Source of the DNA: a virus | Direction: 5' to 3' (one strand) | Length of the DNA stretch: 36,375 bases | IMG/VR virus record: IMGVR_UViG_3300013285_000035 | Span: 1-36,375 of that record | Shown: piece by piece, positions 5,201 through 26,566 of the stretch | Layout: each line of letters begins with the position of its first letter | Position numbering within the stretch: position 1 is the stretch's first letter | Program-made: the position numbers and the translations under genes | Notes under the pieces: generated by a model | Databases searched by the model: none | What the model was told of the DNA's origin: nothing | The model's input: only the letters and a program-made list of their open reading frames with translations

Positions 5201-5631
5201 CATAATATGGTTATATTGTTGAGACTCAACCCATTAATATCTTTAACTTGCTCTGTTGTTTGGATTGATGTCAGTTTTAGGTGACCTTGGCCGGCATTGT
5301 TGCGCTTTGGGTTATAACCAACTAAATTAGCTAGCTTGATGACGCTATCTCTACGCTCTGCGGTGTCAATAAAGTTTTCACGAGTATTCAGGTCATCTCG
5401 GAAACTGAGTGCTTGACCCATGAAAGCCATCACGTCCAGCAACGCAACATATTCACTAGATTCTACATAGTCATTAAATGTTTCAGGATAGTTTTTACGT
5501 AGGTAATCTACGAACGTCTTCCGAAGGGTTTCGTAATCGTAGCTTTGGAAATCAGCTTGCTTGTAGGTTTTGTAGATTGTTTTCCAATCGTTAACCCCAA
5601 AAATACTTGACTGTCGTGAACTTGTGGCCAT
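2275..5631 (-). CDS. gp6: Baseplate wedge protein gp6
   Basis: gp6 forms the inner ring of the T4-type baseplate, linking wedges around the hub; it belongs to the baseplate J-like family. The first 120 residues are diagnostic: a start with IFGVNDWKTIYKTYKQADFQ, then a DYLRKNYPETFNDY stretch, an ALLDVMAFMGQALSFRDDLN stretch and a NLVGYNPKRNNAGQG stretch. Around residues 400-430 a RAPQRFYSQNRMVNGEDY segment matches the usual core. At 1118 aa it is far longer than T4 gp6 (660 aa); much of the extra length is a middle region (roughly residues 470-800) rich in Ser, Thr, Asn and Tyr, perhaps surface-exposed domains. A GATAAATA late promoter lies 20 nt before the ATG and the leader carries AGAG. gp25 lies immediately upstream and a large structural gene immediately downstream, the usual wedge context. 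Confidence 0.93.
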   Translation of the reverse strand: MATSSRQSSIFGVNDWKTIYKTYKQADFQSYDYETLRKTFVDYLRKNYPETFNDYVESSEYVALLDVMAFMGQALSFRDDLNTRENFIDTAERRDSVIKLANLVGYNPKRNNAGQGHLKLTSIQTTEQVKDINGLSLNNITILWNDPANPNWQEQFNSIVNACLIDTQRVGRPGNSNTILDIKTDEYSISIPTGVTATAPFNATVDGVAMDFECVSVTSLNSDSLYELPPGPNGKFNMVYRNDRLGYGSPNTGFFMYFKQGSLRNYNFNLIEQISSQVIDINIQGINNTDTWLYNIDSTTGTIAQWLQVESIYANNIAQVASTNKKIYSVTSRFNDQVSYTFGDGVFGEIPIGNFTAYARAGNALTYTINPGELQGTTVNINYISRVGRVETLTISMELTLPVSNAQARESLQNIKQRAPQRFYSQNRMVNGEDYNNFPYTLYGSIVKSKALNRSSVGVSRNFDLLDPSAKYSSTNNFSDDGGIYLDSSDGYTTFTANTTNDVVAFLTETLNSELNNHRSFQYYTQYYKRYDVNNSTSDGTVTWHQSSFNSLESTGYFLNRLDPVPIGVYSTGNVRYLTEGALLRFTAPSGYYFDQSNRLIEGLPTPADSTFIWTSVASVTGDGSNNGQGNLGNGFGPVVLNNPIPNGVVLSMILPSFTNLLPADIIQNCITQITLNQSFTLTYNNTLLSNQTRWVVDAFDATNYFVKFTSLGSNRYMVTYKALAYYFGSVANVRFTFDKNSVIYDPATGKLLQDFVNVLKLNSQPDSNYPFANDSRLSVVGQLVESDGYVDDYSVEVASTDPNVAGVVKDPDFFYDLTGYKTGAKNISHFVFFERITDINLLTRYQMAANKNINYAYATKAEISLVRYEYASGQIYYATKENSFYQAVNDATTRNIINLVQISNYVAKTGRQGLAFQYRHNSSNTTRIDPATTNIIDLYVVTQAYYTQYQNWIKDTSNKLTEPTSPTINELNIAYSEINNYKMLTDSVILNSVKFKPLFGNKAAPQLRATIKVIKSGGTTASDSEIRSAVLSEMNTYFSIDNWSFGDTFYFTELSAYLHSKIGDLVNSVVLVPNDPSLTFGDLYEIRSAPYEIFVNAAQATDIMVISALTPAELQTY

Positions 5632-5650
5632 AAGTTATTTCTCTTTAATG

Positions 5651-5658
5651 TATTTATC
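5651..5658 (-). promoter_or_regulatory. T4-type late promoter for gp6
   Basis: On the minus strand this reads GATAAATA, matching the T4 late consensus TATAAATA except at the first base. The expected start, about 10 nt past the motif centre, falls near 5645, leaving a leader of about 14 nt with AGAG ahead of the gp6 ATG. It lies in the 46-bp gap after gp25. Confidence 0.7.
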
Positions 5659-12647: not shown

Positions 12648-12947
12648 TTAGAATCCTAGCGCTACACGTAAATTAGGCAACTGAGGAAGGTATATGCCGG
12701 TACCCGTAACAAAATCGAAGATCGGATCTTTTAACCTGTTTGAATTTCTCTGCGCAAACACCCACCACAATCTACTGTCGGCATACAGGTCGTGCGCTAA
12801 TAAATCAGGGCGCATATTGTAAGTCTGTGTTATTTCCCAATATATATCCGATCCGTTCAATGGGATCGGTCTATTGACCATCACATCTAAAAATTCATTA
12901 TTAAACGTTGAGGTTGCATAATAAGGGCTTGTTTGACTGTATGACAT
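12648..12947 (-). CDS. gp53: Baseplate wedge protein gp53
   Basis: gp53 joins wedges into the ring in T4 baseplate assembly. The 99-aa product contains RPDLLAHDLYADSRLWWVFA followed by QRNSNRLKDPIFDF and a G-I-Y-L-P-Q-L end, the hallmark of the gp53 family; T4 gp53 is longer (196 aa), so this is a compact form. I chose ATG 12947 over a TTG two codons upstream because GGAGG lies 9 nt before the ATG but only 3 nt before the TTG. The ATG shares one base with the TAA of the upstream gene (TAATG), which predicts translational coupling. Confidence 0.8.
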   Translation of the reverse strand: MSYSQTSPYYATSTFNNEFLDVMVNRPIPLNGSDIYWEITQTYNMRPDLLAHDLYADSRLWWVFAQRNSNRLKDPIFDFVTGTGIYLPQLPNLRVALGF

Positions 12948-14545
12948 TACCAAATTCCTCCGCCGCCGCCGGGGCGTGTTGATCGTGATAGCTTACCGGT
13001 TGCGTAATCCTTAACACTGAAGTTTTTACTTATATCGTTGCGAGTTACCACTGGGATTAGGGTCAATGTTATCGATATTTTAGTAGGAACATACGTAACT
13101 GTATCTTGACTCCCGGTACTAGTAAATGTTGCGGGAGGTTTGACTCCGGCCGGAGGAAGCCCAGCAGCTTGCATCCTAGCTGTTTTGGGTGGCACCACTG
13201 CCGTACCTTTACTAAGGTTTGTTATATCTACACCTCCCCAAGTTGCGGTTGTTCCTGCTCGAATATAATCTACATCGTTCGGTAGATTGTATGCGAAGGT
13301 AGAAACTAATAAGGGGTGATTATCAAATTGATATGCACCGTAGCCCGACAAATATAATAGCGGAGGTGGGGTGCCAGCATGAGGTGCAGAATCTTTACCG
13401 TAAAACATTTTAGTGACTGCCTTAAAGAAATGTATTACTGCTAACATATAGTTAGCTTCGGCTGTATCTTGCGCAGTAAACTCTGCGGTAAGAGAAACAT
13501 CGTCTACACTACTATTTTTATAAAAAGGTAGTTTGTAATTAGAGTGGGTTAACTCAGTTGCATCATAACTCGCTTTATACGAAGTATTGATTGTAGGTGA
13601 ATAGGGAAACACGACACCGTTGGTTGCAACTAACGGAAATAATATATTCGTAGGAGTCATGCCAGCATCGGCATATAAGTAAGTAGCAGACGGTGCTAAA
13701 CTTAGTCTTATTCTCCAGTCATCTTTTGTAAACGGTGACGTTAGTTTACCAGGTGAGATTACGGGCGGGGCAGTAGCCGGCCCTGAATTTCCGATTCCGG
13801 TCGCAGTTGATCCAGCTGGGGCTGCGCCAAGACCTACCCATATGGGACCACCGTCAGCAAGAGCCCAGCCAACATTTAATACGCCAGCGTCGTCATACGC
13901 GGGTCCATGATCAATTGAAGGATCAGTTGTAGCAGCAGGGCTGCTTGATCCAACTATGCCGGTCAATAAAGTGCCACCACCTGCTGTATTATTAGGGTCA
14001 GTTGTCGTTGCCGGTGCACTATTTTGAATCACTTCGGTTGCAGTGCTCGCCGGCGCAGGGTTTGACTCATTACTTACGGTGGTATCAGTTGATCCATCAA
14101 CTTTTGCAGTAGCTGTAGAAGAGGCCGCTGTCGTTGCGGCGGCTATATTTGTCGGTGGTGCTGCGGCGCCCTTAAGTGCCGCGATCTGTTGATTAACCGT
14201 GTTAAGACTTGCTTGTAGGGGACTTAGTACACTATTAGCTTGAGCCATAGTAGTAGTAGCCTCGGCATCTGCTGCTATGGCGGCTGCATAACCGGGGTCG
14301 GCTGCTAGCATCTTGGCGGCCGAAGGGTATGGTGCAGGTTGTCCGGCGGCTTCGGCGGCCGCGTTTGCTGCCTTTCCATTATTGTATGCAGCTTGTTTCT
14401 CCGCTGTTATCGCGGCCTCAGTAGCGGCCTGTGCTTTAGATGTTATTCTATAGGCGTCATAGGCGGCGTCACGTTGCGCTTTCAAGTCTGTTGCTTGCGC
14501 TTGCAGGGTGTCTATCTGTTCTTGATTTACCGGGGTGTCTGCCAT
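12947..14545 (-). CDS. gp48: Baseplate/tail-tube junction protein, gp48-like
   Basis: The 532-aa product has three parts. Residues 1-130 are helical and Ala-rich with coiled-coil character. Residues 130-265 are an Ala/Thr/Ser/Pro linker. Residues about 270-480 are a folded domain with DDWRIRLSLAP, GVVFPYSPTI, AEANYMLAVIHFFKAVTKMF, a PPPLLYLSGYGAYQF segment and NDVDYIRA. I recognise this combination from gp48/gp54-type tail-tube cap proteins of T4 relatives; gp48 is the better guess, on memory of the family only. It is the first gene of the minus-strand operon. A GATAAATA late promoter lies 26 nt upstream, and AAGGA lies about 12 nt before the ATG. The N-terminal helical part plus linker resembles the layout of the 1044-aa neighbour. 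Confidence 0.6.
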   Translation of the reverse strand: MADTPVNQEQIDTLQAQATDLKAQRDAAYDAYRITSKAQAATEAAITAEKQAAYNNGKAANAAAEAAGQPAPYPSAAKMLAADPGYAAAIAADAEATTTMAQANSVLSPLQASLNTVNQQIAALKGAAAPPTNIAAATTAASSTATAKVDGSTDTTVSNESNPAPASTATEVIQNSAPATTTDPNNTAGGGTLLTGIVGSSSPAATTDPSIDHGPAYDDAGVLNVGWALADGGPIWVGLGAAPAGSTATGIGNSGPATAPPVISPGKLTSPFTKDDWRIRLSLAPSATYLYADAGMTPTNILFPLVATNGVVFPYSPTINTSYKASYDATELTHSNYKLPFYKNSSVDDVSLTAEFTAQDTAEANYMLAVIHFFKAVTKMFYGKDSAPHAGTPPPLLYLSGYGAYQFDNHPLLVSTFAYNLPNDVDYIRAGTTATWGGVDITNLSKGTAVVPPKTARMQAAGLPPAGVKPPATFTSTGSQDTVTYVPTKISITLTLIPVVTRNDISKNFSVKDYATGKLSRSTRPGGGGGIW

Positions 14546-14568: not shown

Positions 14569-14589
14569 TATATTTATCTGATAAATATA
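14569..14589. promoter_or_regulatory. Divergent pair of T4-type late promoters in a perfect inverted repeat
   Basis: A perfect 10-bp inverted repeat around one central base contains GATAAATA on the plus strand (14580-14587) and the same octamer on the minus strand (14571-14578). The predicted starts are near 14594 (rightward, toward gp55) and near 14564 (leftward, toward the gp48-like gene). One element thus serves both the baseplate operon and the gp55 side. Confidence 0.65.
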
Positions 14590-14674: not shown

Positions 14675-15577
14675 ATGTCACTATTACCAGCACCGCGTAA
14701 ACCAATCAATTATCTAAATAATCGAGACATTCTAAAAGAGATTCACACCAGCAAGACCGACTATTGCAGCTTTTTAACCCCCGAGGATCATCGATACGAT
14801 TTCATCGTTGACATGCCCCTCGCTCCAATTGAAGAAAGTCTAGCGTTTGCTAGCACTGCCGAATCAATTCAGCTAGCACGTGAGTGCCGCGCATCACGTT
14901 TGGGACTAGAAGCAGGTGAGAAGGATTCAGTCGATCCATTGTCAATCCCAGTAACTGACTTAGTATTTCGTGTAATGACCTGGGATCATGTCCCTGTTGC
15001 GCCGAAAGCGCCTAGAAAGTCAGATAAAAAGAAAACAGCTAAGGATATCTTTGAGGTCGAAGGTGAAACAGAAGAATTGTTTGCTGATCTAGAAGACACT
15101 ACTACCAAAGCAGAAATTGATGACATGGTTCATGTCAAGGTGAACTTCCCACCATTTCAGCACTTTCGGGTAGACGCTACTAATACGTACCAGTGTATCG
15201 GCAAGAGTCATTGGAAGGGTACATTGAAGGACGGTGAGTTCAGTAAGGATCACGGAAACATTACTAACAAACTTGCCCGTATGTACATTATGATGTGTGA
15301 AAAATATGCAATGAAATACAATTGGCGTGGGTACACATACAATGATGAAATGCGCAACTCAGCCATTCTACAGCTTACATATGTCGGGTTACGATTCAAT
15401 GAAGCCAAATCTGCTAACCCATTTGCTTACTACACCGCAGCTATTACAAATAGTTTCTGTCGTGTCCTAAATACTGAAAAGCGCAATCAAAACATTCGTG
15501 ATGACATTCTGGAAATTAACGGACTGAACCCATCGTGGTCACGCCAAGCTAGTTCTAGCACTAGCTACGAAGAATAA
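14675..15577 (+). CDS. gp55: Late-transcription sigma factor gp55, with long N-terminal extension
   Basis: gp55 directs host RNA polymerase to NATAAATA late promoters, many of which are in this window. The family-like part is the C-terminal half: about residues 165-290 with FPPFQHFRVD, NITNKLARMYIMMCEKYAMK, YTYNDEMRNSAILQ, an NPFAYYTAAITNSFCRVLN segment (sigma region 2-like) and GLNPSWSRQ near the end. T4 gp55 is 185 aa; this is 300 aa. The extra length is mainly an N-terminal segment of about 160 residues, including an acidic Glu/Asp stretch (about residues 125-150), whose role I cannot assign. The ATG has ACGGAG 4 nt upstream. gp47 and gp46 follow on the same strand. Confidence 0.88.
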   Translation: MSLLPAPRKPINYLNNRDILKEIHTSKTDYCSFLTPEDHRYDFIVDMPLAPIEESLAFASTAESIQLARECRASRLGLEAGEKDSVDPLSIPVTDLVFRVMTWDHVPVAPKAPRKSDKKKTAKDIFEVEGETEELFADLEDTTTKAEIDDMVHVKVNFPPFQHFRVDATNTYQCIGKSHWKGTLKDGEFSKDHGNITNKLARMYIMMCEKYAMKYNWRGYTYNDEMRNSAILQLTYVGLRFNEAKSANPFAYYTAAITNSFCRVLNTEKRNQNIRDDILEINGLNPSWSRQASSSTSYEE

Positions 15578-15639: not shown

Positions 15640-16656
15640 ATGAGTAATCTTTTCAAAAAAGCAGCAGTGTTTACCGATATCCACTTCGGTCTTAAGTCAA
15701 ACAGTCTACAACACAATCAAGATTGTGAGAATTTCGTAGATTGGTTCATTACCAAAGCAAAAGCTGAAGGTTGTGAAACTTGTATGTTCTTAGGCGATTG
15801 GAATCATCACCGAGCTAGCATCAACATTCACACATTACAGTTTGGACTACGTTCATTAGAAAAACTAAGTGCAGCGTTTGACCACATATATTTCATTCCA
15901 GGTAATCACGACTTATACTATCGTGACCGCCGTGACATTCACAGTGTTGAATGGGCAAAACACTTACCCAACTTGACAATCGTAAATGATTGGTTCAACG
16001 AAGGTAACGTGGTCATCGCCCCGTGGCTTGTCCAAGAAGATTACAAACAAATTAAAAAAATGACTGGCAAATATATGTTTGGTCATTTTGAGTTACCAAA
16101 CTTCTTTATGAATGCAATGATCGAAATGCCCGATCATGGTGAACTTAACAGTGACCACTTTGCTGGATTCGATATGACCTTCAGTGGTCACTTTCACAAG
16201 CGCCAAGCTAAGAAAAACATTTGGTACATCGGTAATGCTTTCCCACATAACTATGCTGACGCAGGTGATGATGCACGAGGCATGATGGTACTAGAATGGG
16301 ACAAGGATCCTGCGTTCTTTAGTTGGCCGCGTCAGCCATTGTTCAGAGTTTACAAACTCAGCGACATACTAGAAAACCCTGAAGGCTTGCTATTGATTGA
16401 CAGTCATGTTAGAGTACATCTTGACATTGATATTTCATATGAGGAAGCAAACTTCATTCGTGAAACACTAATTCCAGAACATAAACTAAGAGAGATGACA
16501 TTGATACCAATGAAGGTCGACCAGACCGAACAAACTACTGGCGGTGAAGGATTGCGATTTGAGTCAGTTGACCAAATCGTCATTGACCAGATCAACAGTA
16601 TCGAATCAGCTACCTTCGACAAAAAGATTTTGCTAGAAATTTACACCAACCTATGA
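15640..16656 (+). CDS. gp47: Recombination exonuclease subunit gp47 (SbcD/Mre11-like)
   Basis: gp47 is the nuclease partner of gp46; the complex resects DNA ends for recombination-dependent replication. All calcineurin-like phosphoesterase motifs are present: FTDIHFG (D13, H15), FLGDWNHHR, FIPGNHDLYYR, MFGHFELP and FSGHFHKRQ. At 338 aa it matches T4 gp47 (339 aa). The ATG is needed to keep the first metal motif complete, although no clear Shine-Dalgarno site precedes it (the upstream bases are ACGTAG). The stop overlaps the gp46 start as ATGA, implying coupled translation of the two subunits. Confidence 0.95.
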   Translation: MSNLFKKAAVFTDIHFGLKSNSLQHNQDCENFVDWFITKAKAEGCETCMFLGDWNHHRASINIHTLQFGLRSLEKLSAAFDHIYFIPGNHDLYYRDRRDIHSVEWAKHLPNLTIVNDWFNEGNVVIAPWLVQEDYKQIKKMTGKYMFGHFELPNFFMNAMIEMPDHGELNSDHFAGFDMTFSGHFHKRQAKKNIWYIGNAFPHNYADAGDDARGMMVLEWDKDPAFFSWPRQPLFRVYKLSDILENPEGLLLIDSHVRVHLDIDISYEEANFIRETLIPEHKLREMTLIPMKVDQTEQTTGGEGLRFESVDQIVIDQINSIESATFDKKILLEIYTNL

Positions 16657-18728
16657 GTATCACCTTAAAAAATATTACCCTCCGCAATTTTCTATCAATC
16701 GGAAATGTTTGTCAAGCAGTTGACTTTGACAAGAAGGACTTAACACTTATTCTAGGTGAGAACTTAGACTTAGGTGGTGACGGTGCGCGTAATGGTACGG
16801 GTAAGACTACTCTAATTCAGGGTCTTAGCTATGCGTTGTTTGGTGTACCCATTAACAACATTCGTAAGGACAATCTAGTTAACCGCACTAATGCTAAGGG
16901 CATGATGGTTACGCTTGAGTTTAATGCGAACGGCATTGAGTATAAGGTTGAACGTGGTCGTAAACCAAACGTGCTACGATTCTTTGTAAACAATGTTCAA
17001 CAAAAGAATCAAGACGATGCGCAAGGTGAAAACAAAGAAACCCAAGCAGCTATTGAACGTGTACTTTGCATGTCATCTGACATGTTCCGTCACATTGTCG
17101 TACTAAACACTTATTCCGAACCGTTTCTTGCACTGAAAAACAATGAACAAAAAGATATTATCGAACAGCTTTTGGGCATTACGTTATTGTCCGAGAAGGC
17201 TGAGGTCATTAAGAATCTGATTAAGGCCAGTAAGGATGGCATCCAACAAGAAGAATTCAATGTCAAAGCAGTTGAAGAGGCCAACAAGCGTGTCAAAGAA
17301 CAAATTGAAGCACTGAAGCGCAGACAAATGCTTTGGCTAAAGAGACACGATGATGATTTGAATACACTTGCATTAGATTATGATGACTTAAGTAAGATTG
17401 ACATTGACGCTGAGTTACTTGCTCATAAAGATTTAGCAGTTTATAATGAACAGAAAAAACAACAGGACACCTACAGTGCATTGGTTGCTCGTTCTACGGC
17501 TTGGCAGCAAAAACATGATAGTGATGTTTCAGTAGCCCGTACCGCTTACATGCTTAAAAATGAATATGATATTGAAAATGAATTAGAAGCATGGAAAAAC
17601 TTCAATGCGTGGATATTGTATACTGCTGAACAAAAAGTTATTGCAACTACTATCGCTACCCAAACCCAAAGTATCGACAAAGAAAAAAAATTAATTTCTA
17701 AACTCGAAAAAGAGGTTCGGTCATTAGAAGAACACACCTGCTATGCCTGTGGCCAAGACTTCCATGATGACAGTCATACTACGGTATTAACTGACAAACA
17801 AGAAATGCTATCTAATGCTGTTGCACAACTTGCTGAATTGCAAGTTAGTTTAGCTGCTGCTCAAACTCTTGTAAAAGACTTGGGTGCCAAGCCCACTACT
17901 CTCTATAAGACTGAAGCAGAGGCGATTCGTCATAGCAGTGATGTGTCTAATTTGAACACTGTATGGGAGAACAAAAAATCAGAAACGAATCCGTTCGATG
18001 AACAACTATCTGAACATACTGTGATTGTAGTGGGTCAGCAACCAGTGACGCACTACGACACTGAAACCCAAGCAATTGAACATCGTAGCAAGATTGCTAA
18101 CTTGCTGCAACAAATTGATACCAAAGTAGGTGAGGTTGATCCGTACTCAGAACAAGTATCTGAAATGGAAGCAAATGCACTGCAAGCTATTGATTTTGAA
18201 AAGATCAACAAACTAACAAAGACAATGGAACATCAAAAGTTCTTGCTGGACATTTTGACTAGTAAAGATTCGTTTGTTCGTAAGAAGATCATTGACCAGA
18301 ATCTGTCATACTTGAATGCACGATTGACACATTACTTAGATAAGATCGGTCTGCCGCATCAAGTAGTGTTTAAGAATGACTTACAAGTTGAAATCACTGA
18401 ATTAGGACGTGAACTTGATTTTGACAATTTATCGAGGGGAGAACGCAATCGCTTAATCTTAGGCTTGAGTTTTGCATTCCGTGATGTTTGGGAGAACTTG
18501 TATCAACCTATCAACACCCTGTTCATTGACGAATTGATTGACAGTGGATTAGACACAATCGGAGTCGAAAATAGTATTGCTATCCTGAAAGATATGTCAC
18601 GTAGACGCCATAAGTCAATTTGGCTTGTATCTCACCGTGAAGAACTAGCCGGTCGTGTGCCAAGTGTACTCAAAGTTATCAAGGAAAATGGTTTTACAAG
18701 CTACGCTACTAGTAGCGAGATGGAATAA
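16653..18728 (+). CDS. gp46: Recombination ATPase subunit gp46 (SbcC/Rad50-like)
   Basis: gp46 is the SMC-like ATPase of the gp46/47 end-processing complex. Walker A is RNGTGKTT (about residues 46-53), the zinc hook is CYACGQ (C363, C366) between two coiled-coil arms, the ABC signature is LSRGERNR (about 592-599) and Walker B is LFIDELIDSGLD (about 622-633), followed by a SHREEL switch histidine. At 691 aa it is longer than T4 gp46 (560 aa), mostly in the coiled coil. The start overlaps the gp47 stop (ATGA). A 20-bp hairpin begins 11 nt after the stop and could also shape the 3' end of this transcript. Confidence 0.95.
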   Translation: MSITLKNITLRNFLSIGNVCQAVDFDKKDLTLILGENLDLGGDGARNGTGKTTLIQGLSYALFGVPINNIRKDNLVNRTNAKGMMVTLEFNANGIEYKVERGRKPNVLRFFVNNVQQKNQDDAQGENKETQAAIERVLCMSSDMFRHIVVLNTYSEPFLALKNNEQKDIIEQLLGITLLSEKAEVIKNLIKASKDGIQQEEFNVKAVEEANKRVKEQIEALKRRQMLWLKRHDDDLNTLALDYDDLSKIDIDAELLAHKDLAVYNEQKKQQDTYSALVARSTAWQQKHDSDVSVARTAYMLKNEYDIENELEAWKNFNAWILYTAEQKVIATTIATQTQSIDKEKKLISKLEKEVRSLEEHTCYACGQDFHDDSHTTVLTDKQEMLSNAVAQLAELQVSLAAAQTLVKDLGAKPTTLYKTEAEAIRHSSDVSNLNTVWENKKSETNPFDEQLSEHTVIVVGQQPVTHYDTETQAIEHRSKIANLLQQIDTKVGEVDPYSEQVSEMEANALQAIDFEKINKLTKTMEHQKFLLDILTSKDSFVRKKIIDQNLSYLNARLTHYLDKIGLPHQVVFKNDLQVEITELGRELDFDNLSRGERNRLILGLSFAFRDVWENLYQPINTLFIDELIDSGLDTIGVENSIAILKDMSRRRHKSIWLVSHREELAGRVPSVLKVIKENGFTSYATSSEME

Positions 18729-18739
18729 CTATAGTCCTT

Positions 18740-18788
18740 CATAATATGCTCCTCATTCTGGCATAAATAGAATGAGGAGCATATTATG
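18740..18788 (+). promoter_or_regulatory. Perfect 20-bp hairpin sequestering the endonuclease RBS and AUG, with a late-promoter motif in its loop
   Basis: The left arm 18740-18759 is the exact reverse complement of the right arm 18769-18788, with a 9-nt loop. The right arm holds the ribosome site GAGGAG and the ATG of the homing endonuclease, so read-through RNA from gp46 would hide both. The loop and first stem base contain CATAAATA (18762-18769), one base off the T4 late consensus. RNA started there (near 18775) would lack the left arm and leave the GGAG-ATG free. The layout resembles the known late control of T4 I-TevI. Confidence 0.8.
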
Positions 18789-19868
18789 GACACAGGACAT
18801 TGGAATTTTCCGTACGAATTTATCGCAGATGATTGGTTTGGATTCGTTTACCGTATTACAGAGATTAGTACCGGAAGAGAATACATCGGTAAAAAACAAT
18901 TTCATCAATACTTAAAAAAAGCAGTCAAAGGAAAAGTTAACAAGAAAAGTGTCAAGAAAGCATCAGATTGGAAGACATACACTAGCTCATCGACACACGT
19001 TAACCTTGCCATCGAGAAATTTGGAAAAGAAAACTACATATTCATGATCGAGTCTCTTCATAAATCTAGGGCTTCATTAGTGTATGCTGAAGTTAGGTGT
19101 CAGATTCTAGAGGATGTGTTGCGAGTGAGATTGGAAGACGGCATTACTCCAAAATATTTTAATCGGCAAGTGGGTGGTATAAAATTTATACCACCCACTG
19201 AAGTATCGACCGAAACTAAAATGAAGATCAGTGCAAGTTTAGTTCAACGGTATTCTACTGACCCGCACTGGAGATCAGAATTAACAGAATCAGACCTAAA
19301 AATACTGAATGAAAAATATTATCTTAATCAGCAGCATTACTTATACCGATTAATGAATGATGAAGAACGTAGTAAATTCATAGATGATCATTTCAAAGGA
19401 GAAAATAATCCAATGCACGGAGTAGAACCGCATAACAAGGGTAAGACACTTGACGAAAGTTACGGGATTGACACTGCGATTGAGATGAGACAGAAATTAA
19501 GCGAGAAGTGCGGACGATCCGGGGAAGAGAACGGTATGTACGGTAAGACCCACACAGATGCACAGAAAGAAAAATGGAAAAATGATCCAAGAAGGGTGCG
19601 GCCCGGTGAAACAAACGGTATGTTTGGGAAATCAGTCACTGATATTATGTCTCCTGAAAAAACTAAACAATGGAAAGAGAATATAAGCAAGAGTTCTAAA
19701 GGAAGAATTCGGTCACCTGAATCTATCAATAAGATGAAAGAAACACTAAGTGTACAAGATCGATCTAGGCCAATTTTCACATGCCCCAATTGCGCTAGAG
19801 CTATCGGCGGTGAAGGTAATTTCAAACGACACACTGACATGTATTGTAGGGCAAATGAAAAAAAATGA
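18786..19868 (+). CDS. GIY-YIG homing endonuclease with NUMOD3 repeats and C-terminal zinc finger
   Basis: Free-standing homing endonuclease. The N-terminal GIY-YIG domain shows GFVYRI (19-24) and YIGKK (33-37), then SDWKTYTSSS, as in phage Seg/I-TevI-like nucleases. NUMOD3 DNA-binding motifs follow: GENNPMHG (about 205), GEENGMYGKTH (about 245), GETNGMFGKS (about 274) and a SKGRIRSPESINKMKE stretch (about 302-318). The C-terminus has a possible C2H2-type finger, CPNC...H...C (about 331-355). Start ATG 18786 has GAGGAG 6 nt upstream, both buried in a perfect hairpin. It is not inside an interrupted gene: gp46 upstream is complete. A 31-bp inverted repeat lies within the coding sequence. It is probably a selfish element acting on a related phage genome; the target site is unknown. 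Confidence 0.88.
   Translation: MDTGHWNFPYEFIADDWFGFVYRITEISTGREYIGKKQFHQYLKKAVKGKVNKKSVKKASDWKTYTSSSTHVNLAIEKFGKENYIFMIESLHKSRASLVYAEVRCQILEDVLRVRLEDGITPKYFNRQVGGIKFIPPTEVSTETKMKISASLVQRYSTDPHWRSELTESDLKILNEKYYLNQQHYLYRLMNDEERSKFIDDHFKGENNPMHGVEPHNKGKTLDESYGIDTAIEMRQKLSEKCGRSGEENGMYGKTHTDAQKEKWKNDPRRVRPGETNGMFGKSVTDIMSPEKTKQWKENISKSSKGRIRSPESINKMKETLSVQDRSRPIFTCPNCARAIGGEGNFKRHTDMYCRANEKK
19169..19199. repeat. 31-bp inverted repeat inside the homing endonuclease gene
   Basis: Two perfect 15-bp arms (19169-19183 and 19185-19199) flank a single base and would form an AT-centred hairpin in mRNA or a cruciform in DNA. It falls just after the nuclease domain (about residues 129-138) and encodes a QVGGIKFIPPT-like linker. 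Confidence 0.85.
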
Positions 19869-19897: not shown

Positions 19898-20293
19898 ATG
19901 ACAAGAAATGCATCAAACAGTTATTATCCAAAAATTGAGTCTATGATAAATTCACTTGCAGAAGATGGAATCAATTATAGAGTCGAAACATGCGCTGACT
20001 TTCCGTGGCACTTAACTCTTTCAGGTGAGTGTAAGCAACTTGATTCATGGCTAGAACAACTGCTTGATGTAGAAGATGACGGTGATCTCAATATAGTTTT
20101 TTTCAAAATAACTAGAAAAGGTCAATACGTTGCCGTGCAAGGTAAGCTAACATGGAAAGCAGACACCTGCTTATTCTATAGTAGCAAAAAGCATGGCGAC
20201 TGGATCGTCATGGAGCATTCTAGTTTTTTTCAAAACAATGCTGAGTTTGTGAAAGCATACTCAAGCACAACACCAGACACCACGTCAAAATAA
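19898..20293 (+). CDS. Hypothetical protein, 131 aa (116 aa if started at 19943)
   Basis: I do not recognise this protein. It is a small, soluble-looking, mildly acidic product with a beta-rich middle (LNIVFFKITRKGQYVAVQGK, then WKADTCLFYSS) and no membrane segment or obvious catalytic motif. The start is uncertain: ATG 19898 has no ribosome site, and ATG 19943 has a weak GAG. A 19-codon ORF (19879-19938) with GGAG 4 nt before its ATG ends 4 nt before ATG 19943, so the shorter form could be translated by coupling. It follows the endonuclease by 29 bp and may be cargo of the same mobile segment. Confidence 0.6.
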   Translation: MTRNASNSYYPKIESMINSLAEDGINYRVETCADFPWHLTLSGECKQLDSWLEQLLDVEDDGDLNIVFFKITRKGQYVAVQGKLTWKADTCLFYSSKKHGDWIVMEHSSFFQNNAEFVKAYSSTTPDTTSK

Positions 20294-22021: not shown

Positions 22022-24793
22022 ATGTCAGATATTAATACAGACGAACTCGTCAAAGCATTACACGCAGCTACTATTGCATTCGACGCGCATACACGGGCTC
22101 AAGAAACTGCAATCAATTCGCAACGAACGGCAGCTGATGCATCTGATGCATTCGCCCAAGCTCAAGCTCAAGCCGCTACTGAAACAGATGCTAATTCTAA
22201 AAAGACATCGGACGCGTTGAAATCACTAGCTCAATCTATGGGCAGTTCTGCGATTGAATTTGGTAAAGCAATGTATACCGGCGGCGAAGGCACGGCTAAG
22301 TATTCCGGCGCAGTAACAGGCGCGGCAGACGCCGCTGGTAATTTTGCAGCTACAATGTTATCTGCATTCGGTCCGCTGGGCATGGTTGTTGGTACTGTTG
22401 TTAAAGTATTTGGTGCGCTAGTAGGAGCTAGCTTAAAGCAGAACGACCAATTGATGAAGTCTTACCGAGAACTATCCGAAATAGGTTCGATATCGGGTAG
22501 TCTAGAGCAACTTGATAGTGACTTACATAAAGTAGGCCTAACTGCTGCGGAAGCAGAAAAATTTGGAGCGATGCTTCAAAAGGTTGCACCTGATTTAGCA
22601 AACTTTGGTGGAAGTGTCTCTACTGGTAAAGATAAACTATTAGGTGTTATTCAGGGAATGATAGGCCCTGATAATCAAATTGAAAGAGCAATGGGTCGGA
22701 TCGGGTATAGCGCTGATGCCATGAAAGACGCAACAGCCGATTACATAGCAAAACAAACTAGATTGGGCTTGGCACAGGGTAAAACAGAAGGCCAACTACG
22801 TGATGAGTCAGTCAAATACATGATTACTCTGCGTGAGTTAGGTGAGCTTACCGGTATGAGTAGAGATGAAGCTCAAAAAATAATGGATCAGCAACAAGCC
22901 GACGCACGTTGGGCACTGACTCTTAGAAGAATGACTATTGAAGGTAGAAGTGAAGAAGCTACTGCATTGGCAGATTACATGACAACGTATCAAAAAACGT
23001 TTGGTGCAGATTCTGCTAGAGGCTTGATGGAGCAGATTGCTAACAATGGGGCCATGGTAGGTGAAGCTAGTATAAAGACAAATATAGCTACTCAAAATAA
23101 AGCGTATGAAGCCGCTATTAAAGTATCTAAGGGCCAAGCGTCTGTTCAAGCCGGATTAGCTGAAACTGCAGGCGGAGTAATGAGAAATGTCGATCAATTT
23201 GGTAAAGCTATCGATATAGCTGGTAAAGGAATGGAAAATGTAGTCGGTGACAATCAACTAATACTTGGTGCAGTAGCTGTACAAAATAAGAGCAATATTG
23301 ATGTGAATAAGAAGGTTGCTGCGCAGCAACTAGTAGGATCTGGATTATTAGAATCTAATATGAGTATAGAACAAAAGGCACGACAAGCACGAATAATAGC
23401 GGACAATTTGTTGCTTGATATAGGTGGCAAGACGGTTGGGATGTTTGAATCATTAGTTGATATTATGCATAAGTTTGCTAAATTTCTTGCTCAAACCGTC
23501 GACAAACTTAGTTTTGGAAAAACTAACTTTGCAGCCCAATTCAAAGACAAAGAAGATTTTCAAGCTGATCTAAAAGCTGCCCAAGAGGACAAAGTACGAG
23601 CAACCGAAAAGGCACTATGGCTAGAAAAACAAATTAAGGAAATTTCGGCTGATGCGACTGTCGGTGCACTTAATGCAAAGATCAAGCAACTTGAAGCAAA
23701 AGAAAAAGAGTCCGGTGCACCGGTAAAAAAATTACTCAACAATGGAAGTACTGAAGATACAATAAAAGATCCAGTAGCACACGCCCTAGCGGTTGAACAG
23801 CTAGCAGTTCTAAAAACGTTAAAAGACAACTCAGTGGCCAGAGGCGGCCTTAATTTAGACAAACTTAATACAATAAAAGAGGCAGAAGTCCTTAAGCTGA
23901 GAGAAAAGACTGCTAAAAGTGAAGCTGCAATTATAGCTGCGCAAAAAGGCTTAGGTAGCATGACGGCTGATAGAAGTTCATCAGGCGCTGCAGCGGGAGC
24001 GACACGAAAATTAACAGAAGGTACTTCAACCGCAGGAGGCGGAAGAGGAGGTCAAGGAGGTGCTACTTCAGCCGAAGCCGGCTCACCTGAAAAACTCATT
24101 GAATTTACCGGTAACTCTGGTAGTAGATCGCACTTTGATGCACTAGAAGAAGAAACTAAAAAACGATTATTAGCCGCTGCGGAAACTTACTCAGCAGCAA
24201 CTGGCGGAAAAAAGTTACAACTTAACAGTGCAAATAGAAGTTATGAAGAACAACAACGTTTGTGGGACGAAAGTGTTGCTTTAGGCACGCCCGGCATTGG
24301 CCCGACTAATATGAAGGTGGCCAAACCGGGCACAAGTAGACATGAGAGCGGCCGCGCAGTTGATATTCAAAACTATTATGATGAAGAAGCACTCAAGGCA
24401 TTAAAAGCTCAAGGTTTCACTAGACCAGTTTCCGGAGATGACGTACATTTTGAATTACCTCAAGCACGTGATGGCGGAGCATTTTCCGGTCCTACTAGTG
24501 GTTATCCGGTCGCATTGCATGGCAAGAATGAAAGTGTCTGGCCAGAAGATAAACTAAAGGCAGTATTAGCTGAAGTTCAAAAATCTAGCATTGAAGATTA
24601 TAAAAAAGAGATACTAGCAGATATGGGGCTTAACAAATCTTCACCTGCCCCTGCCCCGGCCGCCTCTCCTGTCAACTCTGACGGTATAGCGCAGATGATG
24701 GAGATGATGACTACTAAATTTGACAGCATGATTGCTCAATTAGATAGCTCTAATAGCACATTGCGTGATTTATTAACTTACACCCGCGCATAA
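22022..24793 (+). CDS. Tail tape measure protein with C-terminal M15 peptidase domain
   Basis: The 923-aa protein has the layout of a tape measure: a long Ala-rich helical N-terminus, a hydrophobic stretch around residues 110-140 (FGPLGMVVGTVVKVFGALVG), long helices to about 640, then a Gly/Ser linker. At about 740-815 comes a VanY/peptidase M15-type domain: NSANRSYEEQQRLW, SRHESGRAVDI (H774, D781) and DDVHFEL (H809), the expected zinc ligands of a D,D- or L,D-peptidase that cuts cell-wall peptide bridges. The end has GYPVALHGKNESVWP, a motif common near tape measure C-termini. It may correspond to T4 gp29 in role. No clear ribosome site precedes the ATG. The gp26/gp51-like pair, its probable chaperones, is divergent. 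Confidence 0.78.
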   Translation: MSDINTDELVKALHAATIAFDAHTRAQETAINSQRTAADASDAFAQAQAQAATETDANSKKTSDALKSLAQSMGSSAIEFGKAMYTGGEGTAKYSGAVTGAADAAGNFAATMLSAFGPLGMVVGTVVKVFGALVGASLKQNDQLMKSYRELSEIGSISGSLEQLDSDLHKVGLTAAEAEKFGAMLQKVAPDLANFGGSVSTGKDKLLGVIQGMIGPDNQIERAMGRIGYSADAMKDATADYIAKQTRLGLAQGKTEGQLRDESVKYMITLRELGELTGMSRDEAQKIMDQQQADARWALTLRRMTIEGRSEEATALADYMTTYQKTFGADSARGLMEQIANNGAMVGEASIKTNIATQNKAYEAAIKVSKGQASVQAGLAETAGGVMRNVDQFGKAIDIAGKGMENVVGDNQLILGAVAVQNKSNIDVNKKVAAQQLVGSGLLESNMSIEQKARQARIIADNLLLDIGGKTVGMFESLVDIMHKFAKFLAQTVDKLSFGKTNFAAQFKDKEDFQADLKAAQEDKVRATEKALWLEKQIKEISADATVGALNAKIKQLEAKEKESGAPVKKLLNNGSTEDTIKDPVAHALAVEQLAVLKTLKDNSVARGGLNLDKLNTIKEAEVLKLREKTAKSEAAIIAAQKGLGSMTADRSSSGAAAGATRKLTEGTSTAGGGRGGQGGATSAEAGSPEKLIEFTGNSGSRSHFDALEEETKKRLLAAAETYSAATGGKKLQLNSANRSYEEQQRLWDESVALGTPGIGPTNMKVAKPGTSRHESGRAVDIQNYYDEEALKALKAQGFTRPVSGDDVHFELPQARDGGAFSGPTSGYPVALHGKNESVWPEDKLKAVLAEVQKSSIEDYKKEILADMGLNKSSPAPAPAASPVNSDGIAQMMEMMTTKFDSMIAQLDSSNSTLRDLLTYTRA

Positions 24794-24795
24794 CA

Positions 24796-24803
24796 GATAA
24801 ATA
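24796..24803 (+). promoter_or_regulatory. T4-type late promoter for portal gene 20
   Basis: GATAAATA lies 8 nt before the gp20 ATG. The predicted start near 24810 would leave a leader of only one to three bases. Confidence 0.65.
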
Positions 24804-24811
24804 TATACACT

Positions 24812-26566
24812 ATGGCATACAAAAAACGTTTTCAAGCACCCAATGTTACTGGTGCAGTCAGCCCTATCTCAGGGGCCAATAGTAACAGAAGTGCATGGAA
24901 CGGTGAAGCCAATTCAGCCAACAGTCCCAACAACACAGACTTTGGCTACAAGAACTATCAAAGTCGTTTACCAGAAGTGTATACTGGTCATCCAAACCGT
25001 ATTGAACGTTATAATCAATATGAAATGATGGACGTAGATGCTGAAATTAATGCGTGTTTGGACATCATTGCTGAGTTCAGTACGCAAAAGAATGAACAGA
25101 ATGGTACTCCATTCGAAATCGAATTCAATGAAGACCCGACTCCGCATGAAGTCGAACTAATCAAAAAGCAATTACAACAATGGTGCAAGCTCAACGAGTT
25201 TGATACACGCACATTCAAAATCTTTAGAAACAGCATCAAGTATGGTGATCAGATTTTCGTTCGTGATCCAGAAAACTTTAAGCTATACTGGGTCGATATG
25301 ACTAAGCTAGTCAAGGTTATTGTTAACGAAAGTGAAGGTAAGAAGCCTGAGCAATATGTTATTAAAGACATTAACGTTAACTTACAGAATCTAAGTATTG
25401 CTGAAAAGACGACAACAGACTTTATGACTCAAAGTGGTTCGGGTGGCTATAATGCTGCTACTGCATACAGTGTTCCTAATAGTGGAGGCAGTAGTGGTAA
25501 CAGCGGTAGTAGATTTAACTTGAACATGAACGAGTCAGCCATCGATGCAAAGCATATTGTTCACTTGAGTTTAACTGAAGGCCTAGACAGATTCTGGCCC
25601 TTTGGTCAGTCCATCTTAGAAAACATTTTCAAAGTATACAAACAAAAAGAATTATTAGAAGATGCGATTCTTATCTATCGTATCCAACGTGCTCCAGAGC
25701 GTCGAGTCTTTAAGATTGACGTTGGTAATATGCCAAGTCACATGGCTATGGCATTCGTTGACCGTATTAAAAATGAAATTCACCAACGTAGAATTCCATC
25801 TATCCAAGGTGGACAAGCTACAATGGATGCTACGTATAACCCATTAAGTATCAACGAAGATTATTTTTTCCCTGTTACGGCTGATGGACGTGGTAGTGAT
25901 GTTACTACTCTACCTGGTGGTGACAACTTAGGACAGATTGATGACTTGCGCTACTTTAACAATAGGTTAGCTCGTGGTTTGCGAGTGCCAAGTAGCTATT
26001 TGCCGCAAGGCCCAGAAGACAGCCCGACCCCAATGAGTGATGGACGTGTTGGTACAGCAATGATTCAAGAGTTTCGTTTCAACCAATATTGCGAACGACT
26101 ACAAAAGTACATTAGTCAAAAGCTAAATGACGAATTCAAGTTGTTTATGCGTTGGAGAGGGTTGAACATTGATAGTTCATTGTTTAACATTAAATTCAAT
26201 GCACCACAAAACTTTGCTGCTTATCGTCAAAGTGAACTAGATACTGCACGTGTAACTGTATTCACCGCAATGGAAGCATTCCCTTATATTAGTAAGCGTT
26301 TTGCAATGACACGTTTCTTAGGATTGACTGAAGAAGATATTGAAGAAAATCAACGTCTATGGTTTGAAGAACGTGAAGAACCAGAAGACAGTGAAGCATC
26401 AAGTAGTGATCTACGTAGTATTGGTATCAGTTCTGGTGACATTGAATCAGACACCGAGACTATTGAAAGCACCCCCGAAGAAGGTGCTGAACAAATGTCG
26501 GGTGAAATGTCACCGGCAGTTGCTGCACCGGCTAGTATGGGTGGCGCTACAGCACCAGCTGCGTAA
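24812..26566 (+). CDS. gp20: Portal protein gp20
   Basis: gp20 forms the dodecameric portal at the head vertex through which DNA is packaged and to which the neck attaches. Family features include YQSRLPEVYTGHPNRIERYN and QYEMMDVDAEINACLDIIAE near residue 70, FKIFRNSIKYGDQIFVRDPE near 135, LEDAILIYRIQRAPERRVFK near 285 and an RVPSSYLPQG segment near 395. At 584 aa it is near T4 gp20 (524 aa). The C-terminus is acidic and then Ala/Pro-rich. No Shine-Dalgarno site lies before the ATG (the gap is ATATATACACT), and a late promoter sits immediately upstream, so late mRNA may be almost leaderless. The prohead genes follow in T4 order. Confidence 0.96.
   Translation: MAYKKRFQAPNVTGAVSPISGANSNRSAWNGEANSANSPNNTDFGYKNYQSRLPEVYTGHPNRIERYNQYEMMDVDAEINACLDIIAEFSTQKNEQNGTPFEIEFNEDPTPHEVELIKKQLQQWCKLNEFDTRTFKIFRNSIKYGDQIFVRDPENFKLYWVDMTKLVKVIVNESEGKKPEQYVIKDINVNLQNLSIAEKTTTDFMTQSGSGGYNAATAYSVPNSGGSSGNSGSRFNLNMNESAIDAKHIVHLSLTEGLDRFWPFGQSILENIFKVYKQKELLEDAILIYRIQRAPERRVFKIDVGNMPSHMAMAFVDRIKNEIHQRRIPSIQGGQATMDATYNPLSINEDYFFPVTADGRGSDVTTLPGGDNLGQIDDLRYFNNRLARGLRVPSSYLPQGPEDSPTPMSDGRVGTAMIQEFRFNQYCERLQKYISQKLNDEFKLFMRWRGLNIDSSLFNIKFNAPQNFAAYRQSELDTARVTVFTAMEAFPYISKRFAMTRFLGLTEEDIEENQRLWFEEREEPEDSEASSSDLRSIGISSGDIESDTETIESTPEEGAEQMSGEMSPAVAAPASMGGATAPAA

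Follow-up and report, generated by a model that had tools for sequence, protein, structure and literature searches.

How is a homing endonuclease gene expressed when its Shine-Dalgarno sequence and start codon lie inside one arm of a perfect inverted repeat? The case comes from IMG/VR record IMGVR_UViG_3300013285_000035, a 36,375 nt stretch of a T4-like phage that we analysed at full length and call the window. The major capsid protein encoded there shares 68% identity with its counterpart in Vibrio phage 2.275.O and 65% with those of the Pseudomonas PA5oct group, both being jumbo phages; near-identical DNA to the window was absent from the phage collection. On the + strand the gene order is gp55-type sigma factor, gp47, gp46, GIY-YIG endonuclease and a short ORF. 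The first three are a gp55-type late sigma factor gene (14675-15577; phrog_12791 'sigma factor for late transcription', 5.8e-70), an SbcD-like gp47 gene (15640-16656; phrog_100, 1e-63) and an SbcC-like gp46 gene (16653-18728, stop codon at 18726-18728; phrog_77, 2.8e-103), the last being the presumed source of RNA reading through into the endonuclease. The endonuclease itself (18786-19868, + strand, 360 aa) is a free-standing enzyme of the SegE type. It matches SegE_GIY-YIG PF19835 at 1.2e-31, with 109.9 bits against a curated cut-off of 25, and the homing endonuclease family phrog_7363 at 1.1e-16, and the GIY-YIG core residues G19, Y22, Y33, G35, E102 and N126 are invariant among 22 homologues. 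Elsewhere in the window, 22022-24793 encodes a long late protein (923 aa) whose C-terminal part is a VanY-type peptidase domain (PF02557, 7e-9).

The hairpin is confirmed. Its left arm (18740-18759) and right arm (18769-18788) are 20 nt each and 100% complementary, and they enclose the 9-nt loop GGCATAAAT (18760-18768). The right arm contains the Shine-Dalgarno sequence GAGGAG (18774-18779) and ends with the endonuclease ATG (18786-18788). The loop together with the first stem base forms CATAAATA (18762-18769), which resembles the -10 element of a T4-type late promoter. The preliminary description of this locus had reported both the buried start region and the motif in the loop, and all of its coordinates are right. 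No other perfect hairpin of the window is as long, the runners-up having stems of 14 and 12 bp. When folded, RNA 18730-18830 reaches -42.3 kcal/mol, compared with -16.8 +/- 2.7 for shuffled sequences (z = -9.3), so the folding check proposed with that description favours the hairpin as well.

The ATAAATA motif is very probably the late-promoter motif of this phage, because it is specific to positions upstream of genes when compared with permuted motifs, and because a gp55 gene is nearby. The window has 10 copies, which is not above the number expected by chance, and seven of them lie 3-40 nt ahead of a gene ATG in the sense direction. For eight permuted motifs of similar composition, 0-2 of 5-15 copies are found in that position. 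The same holds for two large relatives, with 62/134 and 71/162 ATAAATA copies ahead of an ATG, compared with 8-28 among 122-250 occurrences of the permuted motifs. Among 31 homologue-carrying contigs tested, 25 encode a gp55-type sigma factor and 19 encode Gp23. In the run of gp47 and gp46 leading to the endonuclease there is no ATAAATA between 14588 and 18762, and sigma-70-like sites in the gp47-gp46 region are at chance level; we assume from T4 that these two genes are transcribed early or in the middle period. At 14571-14587, in the interval between the gp55 gene and a leftward gene (12947-14545), two divergent ATAAATA copies almost touch within an inverted repeat.

We propose that the hairpin acts as a translational lock of the T4 type and brings a late promoter of its own, a reading to which we give a probability of about 0.85. 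The pairing kept in 32 homologues described below, the behaviour of the motif and the gp55 genes in 25 of the 31 contigs all support what the preliminary description had suggested here. RNA reading through from gp46 would carry both arms, and since the hairpin covers the Shine-Dalgarno sequence and the AUG, no endonuclease would be made from it. Once active, RNA polymerase programmed by gp55 would start from CATAAATA in the loop, near 18775, the sixth base after the motif according to T4 late-promoter geometry. The resulting RNA, with an 11-nt leader, would be without the left arm, leaving AGGAG exposed about 6 nt ahead of the AUG and open to translation, so that the endonuclease would be made late only. 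A lock of this class is recognised by the burial of Shine-Dalgarno sequence and AUG in RNA from an upstream promoter, by a late promoter so positioned that its transcripts lack the 5' arm, and by a gp55-type late sigma factor encoded by the phage itself. Here the computed probability of being unpaired in the read-through RNA is 0.000 for GGAG and 0.026 for the AUG, the promoter has that placement with respect to the predicted 5' end, and the sigma factor gene is the one at 14675-15577. In the predicted late RNA from 18775, the corresponding probabilities are 0.46 and 0.11. In silico this bears out in part, for GGAG, the earlier expectation that late RNA leaves GGAG and AUG free; the AUG would still be held mostly by pairing with coding sequence further downstream, in a weak fold of -10.1 kcal/mol. 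The first base of the hairpin is 12 nt past the gp46 stop codon, which would be about the edge of the footprint of a terminating ribosome, and such a ribosome should therefore just fail to open the hairpin.

If pairing over the start site matters, it should be kept in relatives with other sequences, and the preliminary description had pointed to compensatory changes at the same locus in related phages. Two scans for SegE-family homologues gave 49 distinct upstream regions, of which 44 have the motif. Because stem lengths and loops are too variable for counting covariation in aligned columns, we used an arm-swap permutation instead, in which each right arm is paired with its own left arm and with all other left arms. 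We distinguish a far class of 32 homologues, with the motif starting 16-44 nt ahead of the ATG, from a near class, the 16-nt boundary having been set post hoc with the data already seen. In the far class, own arms pair at a mean of -17.3 kcal/mol and swapped arms at -9.3, a difference that none of 20,000 permutations reaches. For the 17 members that are stringently non-redundant (at most 55% alike), the values are -17.4 and -9.7, again with 0/20,000. Complementarity of own arms in the divergent homologues is borne out by arm swapping, not by alignment of the same locus. Stem sequences, stem lengths and loops all differ among far-class homologues though pairing is kept, and many, such as L167, L278, L286, L159, L241 and L251, have hairpins of unrelated sequence in which the arms enclose the motif and the right arm holds the Shine-Dalgarno sequence, the AUG or both.

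For ordinary late genes of two relatives (n = 55), own arms pair at -8.0 compared with -6.9 for swapped arms, and 7/55 beat all swaps. Locks are few on such genes and therefore not a general property of late promoters; they are concentrated on the SegE-type endonuclease family. Two of those on ordinary genes precede genes for gp6-like baseplate wedge proteins. Wedge genes of this type with a promoter-in-loop lock are found at L105:15070-18447, at L146:9165-12533 and in L130 near 19282, and the hairpin of the window's own gp6-like gene (5631-5657) is much weaker. In the relative G003, an HNH endonuclease gene (L111:17084-17422) has a promoter-in-loop hairpin stopping just short of the Shine-Dalgarno sequence, a leader reminiscent of that of seg43(25) in Aeromonas phage 25.

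The surroundings of the gene fit an invasion of the junction between gp46 and a resolvase gene, in which the resolvase would have lost its catalytic half. The closest relatives that lack the endonuclease (L013-L016, gp46 83-87% identical) have an intact PDDEXK / RusA-like resolvase gene directly after gp46 and represent the uninterrupted state of the site; the L013 protein matches PF24608 and phrog_244. In the window a C-terminal remnant of this gene is found on the + strand at 19898-20293; over 107 aa it is 82% identical to the L013 protein (residues 70-176). Only these C-terminal 107 residues are left, behind a new start, and the catalytic N-terminal half is gone. L264 and L234 have an insertion site similar to that of the window, and among relatives at the same site the L264 group and L239 have no hairpin, which counts against the proposed lock, as do three left-arm mismatches in L234, the homologue nearest in sequence. 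In L159 and L263 the endonuclease is convergent with gp46, and a short resolvase-like N-terminal stump, ended by a stop codon, lies just before the hairpin. A 15-bp palindrome within the endonuclease ORF (19169-19199, AGTGGGTGGTATAAAATTTATACCACCCACT) was considered as a second element and rejected, as it is conserved no further than the L264 group; in L264 it has 8 bp with changed sequence, and it is absent in the other homologues. No SegE-family homologues were found in bacterial genome contigs.

A perfect palindrome round a promoter is also a natural operator. A dimeric protein could bind it as DNA and repress the late promoter, possibly the endonuclease itself, as I-TevI does, being a transcriptional autorepressor according to a reference cited in PMC3014915. 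The weak strand preference of the pairing is compatible with such an operator, since sense-strand pairing is only modestly stronger (-1.8 compared with -1.0 for swapped arms). However, an operator shared by the family would be expected to be conserved in sequence, and the homologues keep complementarity while stem sequence, length and loop vary. Moreover, the right arm always extends to the Shine-Dalgarno sequence and/or the AUG, and the homologue nearest in sequence, L234, breaks the palindrome at three mismatches, all in the left arm. We regard an operator as unlikely.

Two further readings concern the hairpin as the end of the gp46 message or as a by-product of insertion. Operon ends are often marked by stable hairpins, and this one begins 12 nt past the gp46 stop, so it could terminate transcription or serve as an element for RNase processing or stability. 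An intrinsic terminator at 18740-18788 was nevertheless rejected, as no U-run follows either arm and there is no terminator call at the site. Furthermore, in about 80 gp46 relatives no such hairpin is found downstream of gp46 unless the endonuclease comes next (most of these loci are without it, hence without the hairpin), and hairpins of the same kind accompany homologues inserted beside genes other than gp46. This makes a role in ending the gp46 message very improbable. Insertion of the endonuclease evidently rearranged the spot between gp46 and the resolvase, and templated repair can create hairpins, so the repeat might instead have no regulatory role and be due to chance, or be left behind neutrally by homing or recombination. 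Such an origin is already disfavoured, and we find it hardly credible, given independent hairpins of unrelated sequence at the same place across the family, the 0/20,000 permutations, and the fact that the family hairpins always enclose the promoter and cover the Shine-Dalgarno sequence or the AUG.

The translational lock is one of two arrangements in the family. Homologues without a lock mostly have the motif 4-7 nt from the ATG. In the near class, 12 homologues in which the motif ends 4-7 nt ahead of the ATG, there is no complementarity between arms (-5.2 compared with -4.8 kcal/mol), a result partly built in because the right segments are short. Most of these genes have no Shine-Dalgarno sequence for a read-through RNA. 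Assuming the promoter-to-start spacing of T4, their late RNA is predicted to begin on the AUG or no more than about two bases from it, and would thus be leaderless. The distance between motif and ATG is bimodal in two large relatives, with peaks at 4-5 nt and at about 16-27 nt, and the short-distance peak is above that of permuted motifs (27 and 35, compared with 1-12). Many motifs 4-5 nt ahead of an ATG are found in L102-L118 and L134-L153, from the relatives G003 and G001; the portal gene of the window (24797-24812) has a gap of 8 nt. From these distances, the late mRNAs of these T4-like jumbo phages are predicted to include a large leaderless class. In T4, between 75 and 124 kb, no TATAAATA is nearer than 14 nt to a start. 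On the tree of the endonucleases, genes with the lock and genes predicted to be leaderless are intermingled; the state has changed at least nine times, and well-supported branches force five of these changes. The family may be a mobile cassette that brings its own switch for late-only expression, either as a hairpin lock with the promoter in its loop or as a late promoter close enough to the AUG for the late RNA to be leaderless and the sole readable one. The two forms would be interchangeable, and the leaderless one would be used widely for late genes in related T4-like jumbo phages, unlike in T4; we consider the odds of this wider picture to be even. In the literature searched, with subscription journals largely outside it, we came across no account of leaderless late promoters of the T4 type, which is weak evidence of novelty.

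The mechanism itself is already known from phage T4. The arrangement is common to I-TevI, I-TevII, I-TevIII, T4 segB and Aeh1 mobE, and e, soc and 49 have it in part (PMC2988022, PMC3014915). Among the T4 leaders that we folded, those of e and I-TevII carry the late promoter in the loop, and those of segB and I-TevI carry it in the left arm. The lysozyme gene e has a hairpin over the Shine-Dalgarno sequence and start region with TATAAATA in the loop, and its late RNA is without the left arm (PMC3014915); it differs from our case in being a lysis gene with a second late promoter further upstream and a stem that is far shorter (the folded segment gives -15.1 kcal/mol). I-TevII shares the GIY-YIG class of homing endonuclease, a late promoter at the loop and a Shine-Dalgarno sequence in the right arm (PMC2988022), but it is intron-encoded and its AUG is outside the main stem. 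T4 segB is a free-standing GIY-YIG gene with AUG and Shine-Dalgarno sequence in the right arm and the late promoter within the hairpin (PMC2988022), although in the left arm rather than the loop, and it is inserted among tRNA genes. Aeh1 mobE, from an Aeromonas phage, is a free-standing homing endonuclease gene whose hairpin has been shown to hide the ribosome binding site (PMC3014915); mobE, likened here by review description only, encodes an HNH enzyme and lies inside a split nrdA. I-TevI, the best-studied case, follows the same logic (PMC2988022, PMC3014915) and is intron-encoded with its promoter in the left arm. The comparison with I-TevI in the preliminary description therefore stands as to logic, and the loop position is a difference only against I-TevI. 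The novelty it implied does not survive these precedents, control of a free-standing gene being known earlier from T4 segB and Aeh1 mobE (PMC2988022, PMC3014915) and a promoter in the loop being present already at T4 e and I-TevII.

New here are the member itself, with a stem of very high stability, and the pattern across the family. A form of control described for a handful of T4-group genes is extended to uncultured T4-like phages, where it covers a broad family of free-standing endonucleases. The dozens of independent sequence solutions show selection for pairing. Homologues without the lock are predicted to be translated from leaderless late RNA, and the pattern as a whole suggests that selfish genes of this kind generally need to be expressed late only.
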